64,000 bases of DNA from Myxacorys almedinensis A (GTDB lineage Bacteria > Cyanobacteriota > Cyanobacteriia > Leptolyngbyales > Leptolyngbyaceae): NCBI RefSeq assembly GCF_010091945.1, contig NZ_WVIE01000008.1, forward strand, positions 62,001 to 126,000. Direction: 5' to 3'. The notes beneath the pieces were generated by a model, which was not told the origin of the DNA, made no database searches, and saw only the letters and a list, made by a program, of their open reading frames with translations. The position numbers and the translations under genes are program-made. Numbering within the stretch: the first letter of the stretch is position 1; each line of letters starts with the position of its first letter. Shown piece by piece: positions 7,412-33,608 of the stretch.

Positions 7412-10021
7412 ATGAGCAGAGTTCAGTTTTATAGATGGTCGGTTGTTCTGGTCAGTAGCCTTGTAAGTGGGTTGGTGTTGCCAGGAGGGGCTGAGGAGAG
7501 ATCCCCCCTAACCCCCCTTAAAAAGGTGGGAACCGAACAACGGCTTGAAGTCCCCCTTCTCAAGGGGGATTTAGGGGGATCAAAACCTACGGATCAAGCA
7601 ACTATGTCTCATCTCCGCCCTCGCCCTGCCACTACCGTCAAAGAGTGGGTCGCTCAAATCGAAGCGGCTACTGTGCAGATCACAGGGGTAACGCTCAACC
7701 GCACGGACACGGGACTGGAAATTGTGCTGCAAACCGCAGAGGGCAAACCGCTACAAGTCGATGCTACAAAGTTTCGCACGGAAGGCACTTCTCTGATTGC
7801 CGATATTCCCAATGCGGTGTTGGCGTTACCGACTGGGCAAGAATTTGTTGCCGATAATCCCGTTGCAGATGTGACAACAATTCGGATTGCACAACAGGAT
7901 GCCAATACGATTCGAGTCAGTGTGACGGGGAATAATGCGCTGCCTAAATCAGAGGTGACGTTGAAAGCGGGTGGGTTAGCATATAGTCTTAACCCGGATG
8001 CAGATGAGCCGGATGAGGAAATTGTCGCGACCGGGGAAAGACGGGAAACCTATCGGGTGCCGAATGCGAGTACTGCAACACGAACGGATACACCATTGCG
8101 CGATATACCCCAATCAATTCAGGTAGTACCTGAAGCTGTACTGCGCGATCAAAATGTTGTCCATTTGGAAGAGGTGCTTAGAAATGTTCCTAGTGGCAAC
8201 CAAATTTCGCCTTCGACACAGTCTGACAGCATAACCAGTCTGCGAGGTTTTCCAATCTTTCCTTTGGGTGGCAATTTCCTTAGAAATGGTCTAAGAGAAC
8301 GATTGGGCGCAGTACCAGTTATTTTTACTAATATTGACAGGATTGAATTTCTTCAAGGTCCGGCTTCAGTGCTGTTTGGGCCAGGTAACCCAGGTGGAAC
8401 CATCAACTTAATAACGAAACAACCGTTGCGCGAACCTTTCTACTCTCTTGATGCCACAATTGGCAGCTTTGATTTTTATCAGGTTGCAGCCGATTTGTCC
8501 GGTCCATTGAATGATTCCAGGAACGTTTTATATCGACTCAATGCATCTTACCTGGACAGAAATAGCTTCATTGATATTTTTGAGGAGAATCAGTTCTTTG
8601 TTGCTCCCGTATTAAGCTGGGCGATTGGGGATAGCACTAAGTTAACGATAGAAGGCGATTATACAGACTCACAAACTTCATATGTTCCGGGTCTGCCAGC
8701 AGTCGGCACTGTATTACCTAACCCAAATGGTCGCATCCCTCGCAATCGGTATCTTGGAGAACCTGATACTGCCTTAAACACTACTATAGCTAGAATTGGA
8801 TATAGTCTGGAGCATCAGTTCAGCAACGACTGGTCATTAAAAAATGCATTTCGGTTTAGTTCACTGCGATTGGACGAAGTCTCTATTAATCCTGACAGCC
8901 TTGAACCGAACAATCGAACGTTAAATCGTTTTAGTCGATTTACGGACATCGAAAATGATGCTTATGAGTTGGCATTAGACCTGACAGGTAATTTCTCAAC
9001 GGGTTCGATTGAGCATCAACTAATCTTAGGAGCCAATTTAGGTCGTACATACTTTGATATTAGAGACTCCTTTGGATCGGTTGCCCCAATTGATTTATTC
9101 AATCCTGTGTATGGACAGCCCTTTGAGACGCCTCCGCTTACTAGAATCAATACCTTTATAAGAAAGGATTTAGGTATTTATGTCCAAGATCAGGTCACTC
9201 TGTTAGAGAATCTTAAGTTGCTACTGGGTGTACGGTTTGATATTTTTGATCAAACCGATCGATTTTTTCGAGCAAGTACAGGAATTACTGAATCAAACAA
9301 TCAATCTGGTAGTGCATTCAGTCCCCGTGTAGGCATTGTTTATCAGCCGATTAGACCAATTTCACTTTATGCTAGTTATACTAGCTCATTTGTTCCGGTT
9401 ATTGGCGTAGCCTTCGATGGTAGCGAGTTTCAACCAGAGCGGGGCACTCAGTATGAGGTTGGAATCAAGGCGGATGTGAATGATCGGCTTTCGACAACCC
9501 TTGCTTTTTACAACCTGACAAGATCTAATGCTTTAACGTCTGATCCAGACAATCAAGGATTTTCTATTCAAACAGGTGAACAGCGTAGCCGAGGGGTTGA
9601 ACTCAACGTCGCAGGTGAAATTCTGCCAGGATGGAACATCACTGCAGGTTATGCCTACACCAATGCCCGAATCACTAGAGACAATGATCTTCCTGTAGGC
9701 AATCGCTTAGATAATGTACCTGAAAACTCCTTCAACTTATGGACAACTTATCAAATTCAACAAGGTACCTTACGAGGTTTAGGGTTTGGCTTAGGATTAT
9801 TTTATGTAGGTGAGCGCCAAGCAAATTTAGATAATACATTTTCTCTGCCCAGTTACCTTCGGACAGATGCGACAATTTTTTACCAGCGCGATCGTTTGCG
9901 TGCTTCCCTCAATTTCCAAAATCTGTTTAATGTAGATTACTTTCAGTCTTCCTACGGGGAGTTAGAGGTTTTTCCTGGTGAACCATTTACAGTACAAGGC
10001 AAAATCTCGTGGGAGTTTTAA
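7412..10021 (+). CDS. TonB-dependent siderophore receptor with AMIN domain (receptor 2)
   Basis: A paralogue of receptor 1 with the same layout: signal peptide, linker, AMIN domain (VQITGVTLNRTDTGLEIVLQ onward), TonB-box-like EEIVATGE, plug (TPLRDIPQSIQVVPEAVL; EFLQGPASVLFGPGNPGGTINL) and a beta barrel ending in GKISWEF. The frame is open from a GTG at 7403; ATG 7412 aligns with the start of receptor 1. The linker after the signal peptide contains a translated palindromic repeat (7500-7581) that reads SPLTPLKK...LLKGDLGGS, absent from receptor 1. The divergent barrel and plug suggest a different siderophore. Confidence 0.95.
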   Translation: MSRVQFYRWSVVLVSSLVSGLVLPGGAEERSPLTPLKKVGTEQRLEVPLLKGDLGGSKPTDQATMSHLRPRPATTVKEWVAQIEAATVQITGVTLNRTDTGLEIVLQTAEGKPLQVDATKFRTEGTSLIADIPNAVLALPTGQEFVADNPVADVTTIRIAQQDANTIRVSVTGNNALPKSEVTLKAGGLAYSLNPDADEPDEEIVATGERRETYRVPNASTATRTDTPLRDIPQSIQVVPEAVLRDQNVVHLEEVLRNVPSGNQISPSTQSDSITSLRGFPIFPLGGNFLRNGLRERLGAVPVIFTNIDRIEFLQGPASVLFGPGNPGGTINLITKQPLREPFYSLDATIGSFDFYQVAADLSGPLNDSRNVLYRLNASYLDRNSFIDIFEENQFFVAPVLSWAIGDSTKLTIEGDYTDSQTSYVPGLPAVGTVLPNPNGRIPRNRYLGEPDTALNTTIARIGYSLEHQFSNDWSLKNAFRFSSLRLDEVSINPDSLEPNNRTLNRFSRFTDIENDAYELALDLTGNFSTGSIEHQLILGANLGRTYFDIRDSFGSVAPIDLFNPVYGQPFETPPLTRINTFIRKDLGIYVQDQVTLLENLKLLLGVRFDIFDQTDRFFRASTGITESNNQSGSAFSPRVGIVYQPIRPISLYASYTSSFVPVIGVAFDGSEFQPERGTQYEVGIKADVNDRLSTTLAFYNLTRSNALTSDPDNQGFSIQTGEQRSRGVELNVAGEILPGWNITAGYAYTNARITRDNDLPVGNRLDNVPENSFNLWTTYQIQQGTLRGLGFGLGLFYVGERQANLDNTFSLPSYLRTDATIFYQRDRLRASLNFQNLFNVDYFQSSYGELEVFPGEPFTVQGKISWEF
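7500..7581 (+). repeat. Palindromic cyanobacterial repeat translated inside receptor 2
   Basis: GATCCCCCCTAACCCCCCTT at the left end and AAGGGGGATTTAGGGGGATC at the right are imperfect inverted repeats of each other, with a second inner pair between them. This C/G-run palindrome resembles short dispersed repeats common in filamentous cyanobacteria. It lies wholly within the coding sequence between the signal peptide and the AMIN domain and stays in an open frame. Confidence 0.75.
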
Positions 10022-20852: not shown

Positions 20853-21328
20853 GTGTTGGTGGATCGTTTTGTAGAGCTTTGTAGAGCATAGTGATCGCTA
20901 GCTTGGCGCTGCCAAATCTTGGAATAAACCCTAGAAATCCAGACCTGCGACTAGATATCTTGAGGAGGATTTGGCGAGATTGTCCCTATCTGTCACCTTC
21001 TCGTCACATTTCATACCCACTGTAAAAGTAGGTTTTATTTAGATAAAACAGCGATCGCAACAATTGTGACTCTACTTTTGATTCAGCCAGTGCTTCGCCC
21101 CAGCGAATGAACAATCTCGTAAAATTGCTCAACAGTTTTGGCTACAACACTGTGTTGCTTTGGGGATGCGAGTATTGGTATTGGCACCAAAAAAATGGGC
21201 GCTCTCATCGGTGGCAAGCGGTTCAACACTTGATCGAGGCTTGAGTCGTTCAAGATAAAACCAAAGGATAAAACCACGGAGTTCTAATCAATAGATAAAA
21301 GCTTGGAAAATAGAAAGATTGATGACTC

Positions 21329-21538: not shown

Positions 21539-22732
21539 ATGAATCTCTTTTCAACTGATGAGCTAACGGTCTTAACCACAGAATCTGAAACGACTTGTGT
21601 TTCAATTTATTCACCAATGGAGCGATTAGGAGTTGAAACACAGCAGAACCCGATTCGGTTTAAGAATTTGATACGCCAAGCAGAGGAAAGACTGATCGCA
21701 GGAGGACTGCGCGGACAAGCTGCAAGAGACTTGCTAGAACCTGCACTTCAACTGGATAATTACGAATTTTGGCAGCATCAGCAAACCGGATTAGCGATCT
21801 TTCTTTCACCCAATTTATTTCGTTACTATCGGTTGCCAATCGACGTTCCTGAATTAGTTGTTGTTAATGATGCTAAAAACGATACTGAAGGAGGTGCGCT
21901 GTGCAATCGGTTCCATGTCAAACCCCTGCTGCCGTTGTTGTCTGGAGATGGGCAATTTTATATCTTAGCGCTCAGCCAAAATCAAATCCGATTGTTTCAA
22001 GGAACTCGCTTTAGTGTGGGTGAAATTGAGCTAGAGGATATGCCGACCAGCATGGCAGAAGCACTGAGATTTGATGATCCTGAAAAGAGTTTACAGTTTC
22101 ACACGGGCACTCCTCCATCGGGAAGCGGTGGTAGTCGAGCCGCAATCTTTCACGGTCAGGGAGCCGGAGAGGATGACCAAAACGAGAATCTGATCCGTTA
22201 CTTCCGTCAAGTAAACGACGGCTTACAAACCTTTCTCAAAAATCAGCGATCGCCGCTAATTTTGGCAGGTGTAGAGTATCTCTTCCCGCTTTATCGTCAA
22301 GCTAATACTTACTCCTATGTGCTGGAAGACGGTATCCCTGGCAACCCAGAGACCTTGACCGCCGAAGAGCTACAGCAATCAGCTTGGGCGATCGTGCAAC
22401 CCTACTTTGAACAAACTCAGCAAGAAGTAATCAGCCAATACGAGGCTTTGACAGAGACAACGGGGCAAACAGCAAGTGAAGTCCAAACTGTGGTTTCAGC
22501 CGCATACTATCATCAGGTTGAAGCTCTGTTTGTTCCGGTTGGGCAGCAACAGTGGGGACGATTTAACCCTGAAACTGGAGAGGTGAAAATGCATTCTGCT
22601 TCTGAACCAGGCAACGAAGACCTGTTAGATTTTGCTGCCTTACATACCCTGCTAAATGGAGGAACAGTTTATGCAGTTGAGCCAGACAAAGTACCGGGGA
22701 ACAAACCCATTGCTGCTGTTTTGCGTTACTAG
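21539..22732 (+). CDS. baeRF (bacterial eRF1-like) family protein
   Basis: A 397-residue protein of the baeRF group, bacterial relatives of the archaeo-eukaryotic release factor eRF1 that are thought to act in ribosome rescue or hibernation. The N-terminus (CVSIYSPMERLGVETQQNPIRFKNLI) and the segments NYEFWQHQQTGLAIFLSPNLFRYYRLP, FHVKPLLPLLSGDGQFYILALSQNQIRLFQG and the central ILAGVEYLFPLYRQ are typical. The eRF1 GGQ loop is not evident. The start has a GAGG upstream. It is monocistronic, preceded by a MITE-like element that may carry or alter its promoter. Confidence 0.75.
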   Translation: MNLFSTDELTVLTTESETTCVSIYSPMERLGVETQQNPIRFKNLIRQAEERLIAGGLRGQAARDLLEPALQLDNYEFWQHQQTGLAIFLSPNLFRYYRLPIDVPELVVVNDAKNDTEGGALCNRFHVKPLLPLLSGDGQFYILALSQNQIRLFQGTRFSVGEIELEDMPTSMAEALRFDDPEKSLQFHTGTPPSGSGGSRAAIFHGQGAGEDDQNENLIRYFRQVNDGLQTFLKNQRSPLILAGVEYLFPLYRQANTYSYVLEDGIPGNPETLTAEELQQSAWAIVQPYFEQTQQEVISQYEALTETTGQTASEVQTVVSAAYYHQVEALFVPVGQQQWGRFNPETGEVKMHSASEPGNEDLLDFAALHTLLNGGTVYAVEPDKVPGNKPIAAVLRY

Positions 22733-27367: not shown

Positions 27368-28394
27368 CTAAGCAGACCGTTGCCAACGATCGAGAATATC
27401 TTTAAACAAGACTTCCTCAATCCAGGTTTTCACAACAACCGCAAGTGGAATTGCCATCAGCAGCCCTAATGCACCAAAGAGCGTCGTGAAAAAGATTTGT
27501 GAAGCTAAAGTGATAGCAGGTAACAACGCAACTTGATTTGCCATCACAGTTGGCGTAAGCCAGTAGCTCTCTATATTCTGAATGATAATATACAGCACTA
27601 AGACAGCCAACGCTTTCCAAGGAGCATCAAGAAACGCGATCGTAATTGGCAACACTGCACTTAAAGTAGGTCCAACATTTGGAATAAAATTTAATAGCCC
27701 TGCTAGCACCGCATGGGCTAGCGCTAGAGGCACCTGCAAGAGCCACAACCCAACGCCGCTTAAAACCCCAATAAAGACCATCTCGATCAAGGCTCCAACT
27801 GTCCAGTGCCCTAGACCTACGGCACAACAAGTAAGAACTTCATCAATTCGTGATCGATAAAAGGCAAAAGAACCGTATAAAAGCCTGACGATAGGCTTGA
27901 GGGTTAATCAGCAACATCAATGCCAATATTAGAACCAATGCTAACTCTAATGCTGCGTTCACAGACGTTGTAAACAGAGCAACGCCTTGTCCTAAGAGAT
28001 TGGTCGCAAATGGCTGGATCTGTCTTAGCAATCCATTCGCGTCAGGAATGTTGGGAAAGTAGGGATCAAGCACTCGATTTTCTAGCCAGTTGATCGCCTG
28101 TTCAATCTGCTCTAGCCCTGTAGGAAATAGCGCAATAAGATGGCTAAACTGATCTAGAAAAGGTGGAATGATTAACCAGGATATACCAACGAGGGCAAGG
28201 ATAAGCGAGAAAAGAGTAAGGAGAACTGCCCAACCTCGCTTGAGTCCAAGGCGTTGCAGTTGCTGCACCAGCAAGTTGAGGGCAGTTGCTAACACAATCG
28301 CTGTGAACAGGAGCAACAGAAGTCGGCAAATTTGCCAAATAATGTACAGTGAGGCAATTACAGCAATCAGTCCTAACCATTGCCCAAACTTCAT
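27368..28394 (-). pseudogene. AI-2E family transporter/permease gene, frameshifted
   Basis: The N-terminal frame (28394 to 27843) starts MKFGQWLGLIAVIASLYIIWQ and runs to INPQAYRQAFIRFF, then goes out of frame. The continuation, AFYRSRIDEVLTCCAVGLGHWTVGALIEMVF, appears one frame over and runs through LAHAVLAGLLNFIPNVGPTLSAVLPI to the end at 27368. Together they give the ~340 residues and eight helices of a normal AI-2E/PerM-type exporter. The break lies in a T4 run (minus strand, near 27867) and is fixed by removing one T. A sequencing slip or recent mutation are both possible. Confidence 0.85.
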
Positions 28395-28777
28395 AGCATT
28401 TTTCCTCGTGTTGGTAGTGCGATCGCGTTGCTATGCCAGAATCTGCGATCGCATTACTGATACGACAAGCAAAACAGGAAATGTAACTGACCGAAGAGAG
28501 ATTCTGCTCCGTATCAAAGCAGTAACCTGAGTTGTCACATTTCTGTCACTTTCTCAAACAATATTGAAATCAAGTCAAGCTACCCCCAATTTTGACTGGC
28601 TAACCTGAAAAACTATTCAATAATATGAGCTTTCTCAACTGTCTCCTCCTAGCGAGGGAAGTAAAAGCTGACTTTAGCTTCTAATCATAGGAAAACTTTA
28701 CGTTCAACTTGCCACACGTTGAAGTGACGTACAGATGTTAACTGGTGCCGTCTACGCAAATTTTTAGAGGTTAGAGT
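28395..28777 (+). promoter_or_regulatory. Gene-free upstream region of the rhodopsin gene
   Basis: 383 bp between divergent genes. A weak sigma-70-type pair is present: TTGACT at 28592-28597 and TATTCA at 28614-28619, 16 bp apart. A short inverted repeat TTCAAC/GTTGAA lies about 60 bp before the rhodopsin start. No ORF is supported. Confidence 0.3.
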
Positions 28778-29599
28778 ATGGATTGGCAATCTATCTTCCA
28801 TTGGCTTTACATTGCTGGTATGTCGATTGGAGCGATCTATTTTGCAATTCTAGGTCGCAATCCTCGTGGTCTTCCCAAGCTTGAATATTTCGTTGCTACA
28901 TTCATCCCAATTTGGTCAGGCTTAATGTATTTGTTAATGGTTCTTCCGACCAGTGGGAACGGCTTAGAACAAGGCAAAATTGAGGTTGCAGGGCAGATTA
29001 CTCATTTCGCTCGCTATGGCGATTGGCTCATAACAACACCGCTATTGCTGCTTGCCCTCTCTTGGACAGCCATGTATCATCAATCTGATAAAGACTGGAC
29101 ATTGACCTTCTCGTTGATGGCAACTCAGGTAGTTGTTGTTATCTCTGGCTTAATTGCAGACCTATCTGATGTCCCGTGGGTTAGGTATTTGTGGTACACG
29201 ATTGGGTGTGTTGCTTTCCTTGTCGTCATGTGGGGTATCTGGGTACCATTGCGAGCAAAAACTAGGGGCAATGCGGAACTATCGAGCTTCTACAAAGGGC
29301 TAACCACGTTTTTTACCATCACCTGGGTTTGCTATCCAATTATTTGGATTTTAGGTCCATCAGGAATTCGTTTATTTGATCAAAACGTTGATACCTTTTT
29401 GTTTTGCTTGGTGCCGTTCTTCTCAAAAGTTGTCTTTAGTTTCCTTGACCTAAACGGATTACGCAGTTTGGGACATCGTGAAGAGCAGAGCGGAGAAGAA
29501 CGGTTTGTTAGCAGCACACTGCGAATCATGAATGCGATTTCGTCTCGGCAACCTCGGCGATCTCGTAGACGAGCACGCGTCTTTCCTGAAAGCTTTTGA
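28778..29599 (+). CDS. Microbial rhodopsin, Anabaena sensory rhodopsin (ASR)-like
   Basis: A 273-residue seven-helix retinal protein closely resembling ASR (RNPRGLPKLEYFVATFIPIWSGL; SGLIADLSDVPWVRYLWY; GIWVPLRAKTR). Retinal lysine K217 lies in LVPFFSKVVFSFLDLNGLR, with P213 where proton pumps have Asp, as in ASR. Helix C reads ARYGDWLITTPLLLLALSW: counterion D82, T86, and A93 at the proton-donor site (ASR has Ser). The leucine at the proteorhodopsin tuning site predicts green absorption. A ~7-residue B-C loop insertion and an Arg-rich tail (RRSRRRARVF) are unusual. No transducer gene like asrT follows. A photosensory rather than pumping role is likely. Confidence 0.93.
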   Translation: MDWQSIFHWLYIAGMSIGAIYFAILGRNPRGLPKLEYFVATFIPIWSGLMYLLMVLPTSGNGLEQGKIEVAGQITHFARYGDWLITTPLLLLALSWTAMYHQSDKDWTLTFSLMATQVVVVISGLIADLSDVPWVRYLWYTIGCVAFLVVMWGIWVPLRAKTRGNAELSSFYKGLTTFFTITWVCYPIIWILGPSGIRLFDQNVDTFLFCLVPFFSKVVFSFLDLNGLRSLGHREEQSGEERFVSSTLRIMNAISSRQPRRSRRRARVFPESF

Positions 29600-29737: not shown

Positions 29738-30718
29738 ATGGTCAAGGTTGGTTATCATGCTTCTCATGAACAGTTTAAGCCCAGTGCCTTACTGAAATAT
29801 GCCCAACTTGCTGAACAAGCAGGGTTCAGCCGCATCTCGTGTTCAGATCATTTTCATCCGTGGAGTGAGCGACAAGGCGAAAGCGGTTTTGCCTGGGCGT
29901 GGCTTGGTGCGGCATTGCAAGCAACTTCATTGCCGTTTGGAGTTGTTTGTGCGCCGGGTCAACGCTATCATCCGGCGATCGTTGCTCAAGCCGCCGCTAC
30001 CCTTGCAGAACTGTTTCCAGAGCGGTTTTGGATTGCAATCGGTAGTGGGCAAGCTTTGAATGAGCTAATTACCGGCGATCGCTGGTTACCGAAAGAACAA
30101 CGCAATGCACGGCTAAAAGAATGTGCTGATGTAATGCGATCGCTGTGGGCAGGCGAGACCATAACCCATGATGGATTTGTTCGGATAGAGGAAGCTAAAC
30201 TTTACACCCGCCCAATTGTGCTTCCTCAAATGATGGGAGCCGCCATTACGCCCCAAACTGCAAAGTGGGTCGGCAGTTGGGCAGATGGTTTGATCACTAT
30301 ATCTCAGCCACTGTCCCAGTTAAAGGCAGTGGTGGAGTCCTTTCGGCAAGGAGGCGGAGATGGTAAACCGATGTACCTCAAGGTTCAACTGTCGTATGCC
30401 TCAAGTGATGCGATCGCCCGTGAGCTTGCCTACGATCAATGGCGCACTAATATTTTCCAAAGCTCAGTGTTGACAGATCTGCGTAGCCCTCAGCAGTTTG
30501 ACCTAATGGCAGAATTGGTTGAGCCGCATGATATGGATACCCATGTGAACATTTCATCTGAGCCTGAACAACATGTGGAATGGCTTCAGCACTATATTGA
30601 GCTAGGATTTGATGAACTTTATTTACATAATGTGAATCGAGAGCAACAACGATTTATTGAAGTGTTTGGTGAACAAGTGCTATCAAAAGTTACAAATCGT
30701 GACCCTGCCTTTCAGTAA
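29738..30718 (+). CDS. LLM class flavin-dependent oxidoreductase (TIGR03885-type)
   Basis: A 326-residue luciferase-like TIM-barrel oxidoreductase: VKVGYHASHEQFKPSALLKYAQLAEQAGF, SCSDHFHPW, YHPAIVAQAAATLAELFPERFWIAIGSGQALNE and PQMMGAAITPQTAKWVGSWADGLIT. These fit the FMN/F420-type LLM subfamily TIGR03885. The substrate is unknown. It follows the rhodopsin by 138 bp on the same strand, which hints at, but does not show, joint expression. Confidence 0.9.
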   Translation: MVKVGYHASHEQFKPSALLKYAQLAEQAGFSRISCSDHFHPWSERQGESGFAWAWLGAALQATSLPFGVVCAPGQRYHPAIVAQAAATLAELFPERFWIAIGSGQALNELITGDRWLPKEQRNARLKECADVMRSLWAGETITHDGFVRIEEAKLYTRPIVLPQMMGAAITPQTAKWVGSWADGLITISQPLSQLKAVVESFRQGGGDGKPMYLKVQLSYASSDAIARELAYDQWRTNIFQSSVLTDLRSPQQFDLMAELVEPHDMDTHVNISSEPEQHVEWLQHYIELGFDELYLHNVNREQQRFIEVFGEQVLSKVTNRDPAFQ

Positions 30719-31049
30719 AGTTCAGAGCGCTGAGGCTTTTAGCCCTAGCAGGCTGTGGCATCAGGTTTCTCCTGGGCTTGCAATTTCAAACTGCCGTTCT
30801 GCTCTGTATCATTTTCTCGTCACTTTTGAATGTTACGTTAGAGATAAGACGGTTTGAATGCATGATCGATCGTAAGTGATGCAGGTCTTGCTGAAATAGT
30901 CAAATAGCTTTTTTAACACCTAACTAGAATAAGAAGTACACCATTTGATAGACGTAGAGAATAAAAATGCTATTCAGAATAGCCCTAGCAATAGACACGA
31001 TTGAGCTTACTAAATCTTGTTCGATGGACATTACATTAGTGGAGGAACT
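30719..31049. other. Gene-free stretch
   Basis: 331 bp between the LLM oxidoreductase and the small lipoprotein. I see no supported ORF, hairpin with T-run or repeat. GGAGGA just before 31050 is the ribosome-binding site of the next gene. Confidence 0.5.
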
Positions 31050-31253
31050 ATGAATAGAATTTTGATTGCACTGGCTCCAGTATTGGGGATATCAATTCTG
31101 TTGGGCGCTTGTGAGCCAACTGGAACGGGTGGAACGGGTGGAACCACAACGACTACTCCAACCGTTAGTCCTACAATCACCCCGACTACTCCAATTGATC
31201 CAACTGTTAGCCCAACTGTTGACCCGACTGTTAGCCCAACAACTTCACCATAA
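31050..31253 (+). CDS. Small Thr/Pro-rich lipoprotein
   Basis: A 67-residue protein from ATG 31050, which has GGAGGA 4 bp upstream. The first 21 residues are a lipoprotein signal (MNRILIALAPVLGISILLGAC). The mature part is low complexity: GTGGTGGTTTTT, then repeated PTVSPT/PTIDPT units built from Thr, Pro, Ser, Val. It probably sits as an extended, possibly modified, surface-tethered peptide. No function is known. Confidence 0.75.
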   Translation: MNRILIALAPVLGISILLGACEPTGTGGTGGTTTTTPTVSPTITPTTPIDPTVSPTVDPTVSPTTSP

Positions 31254-31463: not shown

Positions 31464-33608
31464 ATGCGAATTAGCGTTGGTCCACCTATTCTTACAATCA
31501 ATCACGGCAGCACCTTTATGGTGAGTGATTTGGCAGGGCAAATTCATTCTGAAGGATATCTTGGCATCTTTTCGGACGATACTCGGTTTCTCAGCCACTA
31601 TGCATCTTATATTGATGGGCATGAGTGGCTCCGGATTAGCTCAGCAACGACAACCTACTATGGGGCGCGAGTTTATCTTGCAAATCCAACGTTCACATCA
31701 AAAAATGGCGAAATTCTGTCAGGAGAGCTATCTCTAACGATCAGCCGCGTTGTAGAATCTGGAATTCACGAGGAATTAGAACTCACAAATCATAGACTTG
31801 AGCCAGTGAGCTTTAGCCTTGAAATTGTTCAGCGATCAGACTTTGCAGATGTTTTCGAGGTTGAGTCGCAGCAGTTTGTAAGACGGGGACGAATTGAAAC
31901 CGTATGGAATAGCGACAAGCGGGAATTGTCAACCACGTATCAAAATGAAGATTTTTATCGTTGCTTAATCTATCGTGTTCGCCGTTGCAGTTCACCGGTG
32001 CATTATGCAAACGGGCGCATCACCTTTGAAATTACGCTACAGCCAGGTGAGGTCTGGAAAGCTTGCTGCAACTATGTTTTGTCAGACAATGAGCATGTGC
32101 GGGATGTTCTTGACTATAGCTATCAATCTGCGGTTGACCCCAGCCAAATCAACACTGAAATTGAACAACTCCATGCTGATTGGTGCGGCTCTGTTACCGC
32201 TATTGATTCATCAGACGAAACTTTGAATCGGCTGTACCAACAATCGGTTGAGGATTTAGGGGCACTGCGGTTGTTTGACTATGATTATGGATCTGATATC
32301 TGGATTGCTGCCGCAGGTGTACCAAAATATGTCACGCTGTTTGGGCGGGATAGCCTAATTACTGGTTTGCAAACGATGATGGTGCATTCGAGGTTTGCAG
32401 TAGGGGCACTCAAAAAACTTGCAGAGTTGCAAGCAACGGAACTTGACGATTGGCGCGATGCAGAACCCGGTAAGATTTTGCACGAAGTGCGGCAGGGGGA
32501 GTTAGCAAAACTTCAACAGATTCCTCACACTCCCTACTATGGAACAGCAGATGCAACGCCATTGTTTTTGATTACGCTACACGAAACATGGAAGTGGTCG
32601 GGAGATGATTTGCTATTGAACGACCATCGCGATGTGATATTGGGGTGTTTAGAGTGGATCGATCGCTACGGTGATCTAGATGGCGACGGCTTTCAAGAAT
32701 ATAAAGTTCGATCGCCGAAGGGCATTGAGAATCAGGGATGGAAGGATTCGGGAGATGCGATCGTAAATGCCGATGGAACCCAAGTTGACGCGCCCAAAGC
32801 CTTGTGCGAACTGCAAGGCTATGCCTTTGATGCCCAGATGCGAATGGCAGAAGTATTTGAGTATTTGGGAGAGTGCGATCGCGCTAACAATCTTAGAACC
32901 AAAGCAACCCATCTCCAACAGCAATTTGAGGACACCTTCTGGTGCGAGGATTTGGGATTCTATGCCTTTACGCTCGATCCCGAAAAGCGCCCCGTTAAGA
33001 CTATTTCCTCAAATGTAGGGCATTGTTTGTGGAGCGGGATTATCCGACCTGATCGCGCTGCACGGGTAGTAGAGCGCCTTTTACAACCCGATATGTGGAG
33101 CGGATGGGGCATCCGGACGCTTTCTACCCAAAACCCGGCTTACAACCCGTTTTCCTATCACCGGGGCACCATCTGGCCTCATGACAACGGCATCATCGCG
33201 ATGGGCTTTAGACGGTATGGCTTTGCAGAGCAAGTGGCTCAAGTTGCACAGGGCATCTTTGATACCGCAAATTATTTTGCGAGCTATCGGCTGCCTGAGC
33301 TATATGCAGGAATTCCACGGGAACCGGGCACGTTTCCTGCACCATATTTAGAGGCAAACGTTCCGCAGGCGTGGGCGGCTGCCTCGGTATTTCATTTGCT
33401 GCAAGCCATGCTCGGACTACAAGCAGATGCCCCTCACCGTCACTTGTATGTTGACCCTCACTTACCCAACTGGTTGTCGGCGATCAAGCTTGAGCGTGTT
33501 GAAGTTGGTGAGGCGCGCGTTGATTTGAAGTTTTGGCGCGAGGGCACGCAGACTCGTTGGGATGCCACGGTGACATCAGGAACGTTGGAAATTAAATCCC
33601 ACCCTTGA
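31464..33608 (+). CDS. Amylo-alpha-1,6-glucosidase / glycogen debranching-type enzyme
   Basis: A 714-residue protein. Residues ~10-200 match the GDE N-terminal 'bis' domain (FMVSDLAGQIHSEGYLGIFSDDTRFLSHY). The rest is an (alpha/alpha)6 glucosidase barrel with IAAAGVPKYVTLFGRDSLITGLQ, HEVRQGELA, YYGTADATPLFLI, YHRGTIWPHDNGIIAMG and the catalytic-type acidic residues in these segments. The likely role is hydrolysis of alpha-1,6 branches or related alpha-glucans. AAAGGAG precedes the start. It is monocistronic. Confidence 0.92.
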   Translation: MRISVGPPILTINHGSTFMVSDLAGQIHSEGYLGIFSDDTRFLSHYASYIDGHEWLRISSATTTYYGARVYLANPTFTSKNGEILSGELSLTISRVVESGIHEELELTNHRLEPVSFSLEIVQRSDFADVFEVESQQFVRRGRIETVWNSDKRELSTTYQNEDFYRCLIYRVRRCSSPVHYANGRITFEITLQPGEVWKACCNYVLSDNEHVRDVLDYSYQSAVDPSQINTEIEQLHADWCGSVTAIDSSDETLNRLYQQSVEDLGALRLFDYDYGSDIWIAAAGVPKYVTLFGRDSLITGLQTMMVHSRFAVGALKKLAELQATELDDWRDAEPGKILHEVRQGELAKLQQIPHTPYYGTADATPLFLITLHETWKWSGDDLLLNDHRDVILGCLEWIDRYGDLDGDGFQEYKVRSPKGIENQGWKDSGDAIVNADGTQVDAPKALCELQGYAFDAQMRMAEVFEYLGECDRANNLRTKATHLQQQFEDTFWCEDLGFYAFTLDPEKRPVKTISSNVGHCLWSGIIRPDRAARVVERLLQPDMWSGWGIRTLSTQNPAYNPFSYHRGTIWPHDNGIIAMGFRRYGFAEQVAQVAQGIFDTANYFASYRLPELYAGIPREPGTFPAPYLEANVPQAWAAASVFHLLQAMLGLQADAPHRHLYVDPHLPNWLSAIKLERVEVGEARVDLKFWREGTQTRWDATVTSGTLEIKSHP

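Follow-up and report, generated by a model that had tools for sequence, protein, structure and literature searches.

An ordinary Anabaena-type sensory rhodopsin of Myxacorys almedinensis and its conserved upstream operator, with an RppA-like regulator as the likely activator

Anabaena sensory rhodopsin (ASR) has mainly been studied as a photochromic sensor acting with ASRT, a model derived from one strain, and what ASR and its relatives do in the cell is regarded as unclear (PMC7541481). The rarity of asrT has been known since 2011: Ugalde et al. described other xenorhodopsin genomes without an ASRT homologue and, for Cyanothece PCC 7424, a two-component system near the xenorhodopsin gene (Ugalde et al. 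2011, PMC3198991). In PCC 7120, asr is a FurA target and responds to iron limitation with strong induction (PMC4005646), in keeping with regulation by stress. The gene is also strongly affected in FUR misregulation strains of PCC 7120 (PMC12282138).

The asr gene described here was found in a stretch of 64,000 nucleotides of Myxacorys almedinensis A (contig NZ_WVIE01000008.1), referred to as the window. It is located at 28778-29599 (+) and codes for 273 amino acids. The product matches PF01036 (E 8.3e-56), and a seven-helix rhodopsin fold is predicted by homology. No other microbial rhodopsin was found in the 4.96-Mb genome, the assembly of which consists of 85 contigs with a completeness estimate of 100%. 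Alignment with Anabaena ASR (1xio) extended end to end over 267 residues with 59% identity (E 2.9e-98). The Schiff-base lysine of helix G is present (K217, ASR K210), the helix-G aspartate is replaced by proline (P213, ASR P206), the Asp counterion is retained (D82, ASR D75) and the donor site is without aspartate (A93, ASR S86). Further equivalents are E36 (E36), T86 (T79) and D224 (D217). The original prediction had assigned the protein to the ASR type by D82, P213 and K217, and this is borne out by the alignment. In a tree of 43 ASR-family sequences with BcXeR as outgroup, the protein was placed inside the ASR clade; its smallest strongly supported set comprises seven rows (100/99) and is nested in larger ASR sets. 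Judged by its sequence, the window protein is an ordinary retinal protein of the ASR family (xenorhodopsin clade), a known family to which it adds a further member. Two carotenoid-oxygenase homologues (PF03055) of the same genome are candidate suppliers of retinal.

Three features had been pointed out as distinctive: alanine at the donor site (codon 29054-29056, +; BR Asp96 site), seven additional B-C loop residues compared with ASR (codons 57-63, 28946-28966, +) and an Arg-rich C-terminal tail (residues 231-273, 29468-29596, +). All of them are present. The motif RRSRRRARVF, which had been given as the end of the protein, also occurs, but is followed by four more residues, the true end being RRSRRRARVFPESF. 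The presumed rarity of these features did not hold. Orthologues were gathered by searching phylum, order and class genome samples, and their loci were fetched and aligned. Of the 43 tree sequences, 29 have Ala at site 93, 13 have Ser and one has Thr, with about six changes, back and forth, across the tree; Ala, Ser or Thr was likewise detected in the 21 scorable Nostocaceae orthologues. Genome G496 holds two ASR copies, one with Ser and one with Ala at this site. The loop is longer by seven residues throughout the near clade and by five in the sister group, and no additional residues occur in the group of Anabaena ASR. The tail of the window protein, with ERFVSSTLRI ahead of the Arg-rich end, has the layout of other long-tailed ASRs. 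All 33 of these have a basic end, usually after a DRxVxxT-like segment. Identical tails in a studied ASR had been named as evidence against distinctiveness, and in substance this is the case for Anabaena ASR with its Arg-rich end NSRRQQSRRR. Hence, A93, loop and tail were rejected as distinguishing traits, as alignment and tree show them to be traits of the family. Furthermore, the Ser/Ala difference alone is unlikely to be decisive, since substitution at Pro206 and Ser86 is insufficient for pumping according to the title of a published study (reference 84 in PMC3267196).

Four ASR copies (L071, L266, L271 and L273 of genomes G408, G739, G775 and G656) contain an in-frame stop codon, which suggests repeated decay of asr.

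The asr upstream regions of close relatives were aligned and one conserved block was found. A first matrix of six sites revealed further sites before many other ASR genes. Most of these are on the strand of the gene, and a distance of 55-80 nt to the start codon is frequent. The matrix was rebuilt from 23 ASR upstream sites. Its consensus, RTCAC-WTTTCN-RTCAC-ATTT, is a direct repeat of 21 bp with an 11-bp period. The predicted operator of the window asr, TGTCACATTTCTGTCACTTTC (28533-28553, +; 26.3 bits), is located 245 nt before the ATG and is followed at conserved spacing by the -10 element AATATT (28560-28565, +). Transcription is predicted to start at about 28572, with a 5' leader of about 206 nt. 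A second operator, TATCATTTTCTCGTCACTTTT (30807-30827, +; 18.8 bits), was predicted with the -10 element TACGTT at 30834-30839, and a third, TGTCACCTTCTCGTCACATTT (20991-21011, +; 25.2 bits), with CACTGT at 21018-21023. The -10 element lies outside the matrix; of 70 aligned sites, 99% have A at +28 and 90% have T at +32. Both bases are present at all three window operators.

Operator and -10 element precede most ASR genes, across many families. In a scan of 295 kb of ASR loci, 52 matches of at least 18 bits (including the 23 training sites) were obtained; 40 matrices with permuted columns gave 0.10 on average. Nostocaceae, none of which had been used in building the matrix, served as held-out set. 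Here the surroundings of ten ASR genes (172 kb) gave 30 sites of at least 18 bits (0.12 with permuted matrices). Outside long ORFs lay 28 of them; A+28 was present in all 30 and T+32 in 29. Thirteen of the 21 Nostocaceae ASR genomes with readable upstream region have the operator upstream of asr. The repeat is also present at asr of G802, the product of which is 89% identical to ASR of PCC 7120. An IUPAC pattern with two mismatches gave 14 matches in the M. almedinensis genome and eight for the reversed control. As this pattern is noisy genome-wide, our conclusions on the operator are based on the weight matrix and the held-out loci. In the searchable open-access literature, no description of this operator with its set of genes near asr was found, and the conserved promoter switch of asr is apparently undescribed. 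Its tandem repeats of 11-bp period and the -10 element at fixed spacing fit the promoter of a PhoB/OmpR-type activator. We presume a resemblance of the operator to the RcaC L box and the E. coli Pho box.

The operator is shared with other genes. Matches in the ASR loci are mostly intergenic and oriented toward genes for ASR, AI-2E transporters, ferric-reductase-like proteins, P-type ATPases and MgtE; the operator also occurs before genes for a trehalose-synthase-like enzyme, BrkB, an SDR and others. Recurring around asr of Nostocaceae are AI-2E, DUF389, FerRed, P-type ATPase, SDR, GDE and LLM genes and the regulator pair discussed below. In the window, an AI-2E family transporter gene (PF01594) is divergent from asr, as in seven other loci (L071, L072, L076, L094, L105, L106, L107). 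On the other side of asr follow a TIGR03885 LLM-class flavin oxidoreductase gene (29738-30718, +), also found after ASR in G005, G070 and G694, and then the second operator, which precedes genes for a small Thr/Pro-rich putative lipoprotein (31050-31253, +) and a glycogen-debranching-enzyme-like protein with GDE_N_bis and GDE_C (31464-33608, +). The third operator precedes the gene of a baeRF-family protein (21539-22732, +), the first sizeable ORF downstream of it.

The reading frame of the window AI-2E transporter (27368-28394, -) is broken between an N-terminal piece (27843-28394, -) and a C-terminal piece (27368-27790, -); 172 and 127 PF01594 residues were matched and the middle is lost, by either a frameshift or a sequencing error. 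In other loci, a cation P-type ATPase gene is located directly beside asr (L091, L095, L101-L103, L305, L306). In the group of short-tailed ASRs it is divergent from asr and has an operator of its own.

Beside asr, a response regulator of the OmpR family recurs together with its kinase and c5, a small secreted protein. Within 20 kb of ASR, an orthologue of the regulator was found in 13 of 35 genomes of the class sample (0.35 expected) and in five of 21 Nostocaceae (0.24 expected). According to Fisher tests, which ignore shared ancestry, the regulator is associated with ASR in general (36 of 39 ASR genomes, 74 of 349 others; p 7e-19) and in the window's own family (6/6 ASR genomes, 18/36 others; p 0.03), as well as with the operator at asr, being present in all 38 genomes that have it, while none of the three ASR genomes without the regulator has the operator (p 0.04). 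Twenty ASR genomes are without a strong upstream operator; 17 of these have the regulator. In M. almedinensis the regulator-kinase pair is encoded on a contig other than that of asr (G000:C45; regulator at 8199-8912) and is followed by an operator of 28.4 bits. The operator also follows the pair in G403 and G129, two genomes without ASR match. With 264.6 bits the M. almedinensis regulator is above the NCBIfam cut-off for RppA (250). The kinase is closest to RppB and, with 262.6 bits, below the cut-off of 400.

The regulator of M. almedinensis belongs to a cassette (L218 on G000:C45, 119-10201) with invertase-like and MGH1-like glycosidase genes, an SDR, two BOF-like secreted proteins with operator upstream, the kinase, the RppA-like regulator, the divergent c5 and a DedA-like protein. 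c5 (L218 9078-9470, +) is small, N-terminally anchored, divergent from the regulator-kinase pair and without match in Pfam or NCBIfam. It adjoins ASR in L091, L095, L101 and L102 and is possibly an accessory sensor.

For RppA of Synechocystis the motif AAMAWCTCYYWCCCC is given (review, PMC13421787). Compared by eye, it does not match the operator with its RTCAC direct repeats. Because of this other motif the name was kept at "RppA-like", and as the kinase is also below the RppB cut-off, the pair may be a paralogue of RppA/RppB. The unlike motif (PMC13421787) also speaks for the operator belonging to a different regulator (SphR/PhoB, RpaB or another member of the OmpR family), with the RppA-like gene as a mere neighbour. 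The layout of two direct repeats with 11-bp period is Pho box-like, PhoB and SphR binding 8-bp repeats with 3-bp linkers (PMC1906773), and another OmpR-family regulator could be the binder. Nevertheless, we consider a different regulator unlikely. The cyanobacterial Pho box, CTTAACCT (PMC1906773), is unlike RTCAC, the operator adjoins the RppA-like pair even in genomes without ASR match, and all genomes in which asr has the operator contain the RppA-like gene. Two individual candidates were rejected: a Pho box/SphR regulon, as the half-site is RTCAC and not a direct repeat of CTTAACCT, and OrrA, which belongs to the LuxR family and in the published account of which no binding sequence was found.

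In our opinion it is probable that an ordinary ASR is transcribed from a response-regulator-dependent promoter of PhoB/OmpR type, common to stress genes, with the RppA-like regulator as the likely activator. The RppB-like kinase would sense an envelope, ion, redox or osmotic signal, a range deduced from the gene content of the regulon. The regulator would then bind the operator by occupying both RTCAC half-sites, which lie 11 bp from each other where a -35 element would be expected. Binding would activate transcription by recruiting RNA polymerase, with the -10 element (nAnnCT) at fixed spacing and no -35. Stress genes for envelope, ion transport, redox and carbohydrate functions would be driven by the same promoter, and many of these genes adjoin asr. 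The activator would be the RppA-like regulator with its RppB-like kinase, encoded on G000:C45 here and beside asr in many relatives. ASR would hence be expressed within an RppA-like stress regulon, co-produced with transport and carbohydrate genes, and may act without ASRT on the physiology of cells exposed to the stress to which the kinase responds. We tentatively propose, as a possibility that falls somewhat short of an even chance, that ASR is mainly an output of this conserved regulon and works, independently of ASRT, alongside genes for ion transport, redox and carbohydrate functions, and that the model of ASR and ASRT in chromatic adaptation applies to a minority of lineages.

ASR could instead serve ion homeostasis, moving protons weakly or inward for the transport genes of the regulon, and not be a sensor. 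This was proposed from the adjacency of an antiporter gene in the commentary printed with PMC3198991, and AI-2E, DUF389, MgtE, P-type ATPase and Na+/H+ antiporter genes are indeed abundant in the regulon and its neighbourhood. The exchange D217E turns ASR into an inward pump (PMC3198991). However, D224, the equivalent of D217, is Asp and not Glu in the window protein, the donor site is without carboxylate, and no ion transport is detectable for wild-type ASR (PMC7541481). Such a function is rather unlikely.

Direct signalling by the Arg-rich C-terminus, which would bind nucleic acid or a membrane or protein partner in a light-dependent manner, is doubtful as well, and we give it a low probability. 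Its basic end and the preceding DRxVxxT-like segment are retained in the long-tailed ASRs, and the title of Irieda 2012, cited in PMC4005646, names photo-induced gene regulation by ASR itself. On the other hand, dN is higher in the tail (about 0.15-0.46) than in the core (0.02-0.12), a readout limited to faster amino-acid change, as dS is saturated in most pairs. In ten ASRs the tail is short, with 14-21 residues. Of these ten, eight with 14-17 residues form one supported group, which keeps the gene family and in most members the operator. The persistence of this group indicates that the tail is dispensable for the family-wide function.

The original prediction had noted that no asrT-like transducer is adjacent to asr, and this was confirmed for the window. 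The search of the whole genome (85 contigs, completeness estimate 100%) with PF07100 (ASRT) gave no match either, and ASRT as a hidden partner in M. almedinensis was thus rejected. Signalling through another partner, as had been suggested, is plausible; the missing asrT is no special trait, since 32 of 39 ASR genomes (82%) of the class sample are without ASRT. Among its 388 genomes ASRT was detected in 15, ASR in 39 and both in seven, which corresponds to ASRT in 7/39 ASR genomes and 8/349 others (odds ratio 9, p 2e-4). Where present, ASRT is usually unlinked to ASR. Directly downstream of ASR, asrT was found in at least three of 22 Nostocaceae ASR loci (G694, G304, G785) and, judging by locus matches, in G700. 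The gene order in G694 is ASR, asrT, LLM oxidoreductase and GDE; the window order of ASR, LLM, small lipoprotein and GDE is this block minus asrT. Classical photosensory signalling, with a soluble ASRT-type transducer adjusting light-harvesting genes, is highly improbable here, although ASRT is a DNA-binding protein with an effect on the pec promoter (PMC8660804), co-occurs with ASR above expectation and is encoded directly downstream in these four genomes: it is contradicted by the missing PF07100 match, unless the gene falls into a gap of the assembly, and by the ASR genomes in which ASRT is absent or unlinked.

An ASRT fragment of 80 amino acids was observed in G185 (L020), a congener of the window organism without rhodopsin match, hinting at decay of asrT in the genus.

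In general, most genomes with ASR have no asrT, and asr is found together with the promoter architecture and the RppA-like regulator in many families of cyanobacteria. A candidate regulator and a set of genes that should be co-expressed with ASR are now named. Thus, it becomes directly testable when and why cells make ASR, and a long-puzzling light sensor gains a testable genetic context. If the assignment of the regulator is true, the RppA-like system gains a defined operator and a new set of targets.

Compared with known systems, the window protein is closest to ASR of Anabaena (Nostoc) sp. PCC 7120 (1xio). Both have the counterion Asp, the equivalents of Pro206, Lys210, Glu36 and Asp217, a non-carboxylic donor site and an Arg-rich tail. 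They differ in Ala for Ser86 and seven additional B-C loop residues, both common among orthologues, and in the genome without asrT. Xenorhodopsins (Ugalde 2011; BcXeR, 7zmy) share Pro at the Asp212 site and a donor site without Asp, which is Ala in BcXeR as in the window protein, but are more distant (about 170 compared with 332 bits). The asr promoter has the direct repeats of 11-bp period and the -10 element at fixed distance in common with PhoB-type class II promoters (E. coli Pho box, cyanobacterial SphR box). In contrast to these, its half-site is RTCAC and not the cyanobacterial CTTAACCT, and the regulated genes are not phosphate genes. From RppA/RppB (NrsR/NrsS) of Synechocystis the pair of M. 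almedinensis is distinguished by the kinase score under the RppB cut-off, the operator unlike the RppA motif and the linked c5, but its regulator passes the RppA equivalog cut-off and the kinase next to it resembles RppB most.
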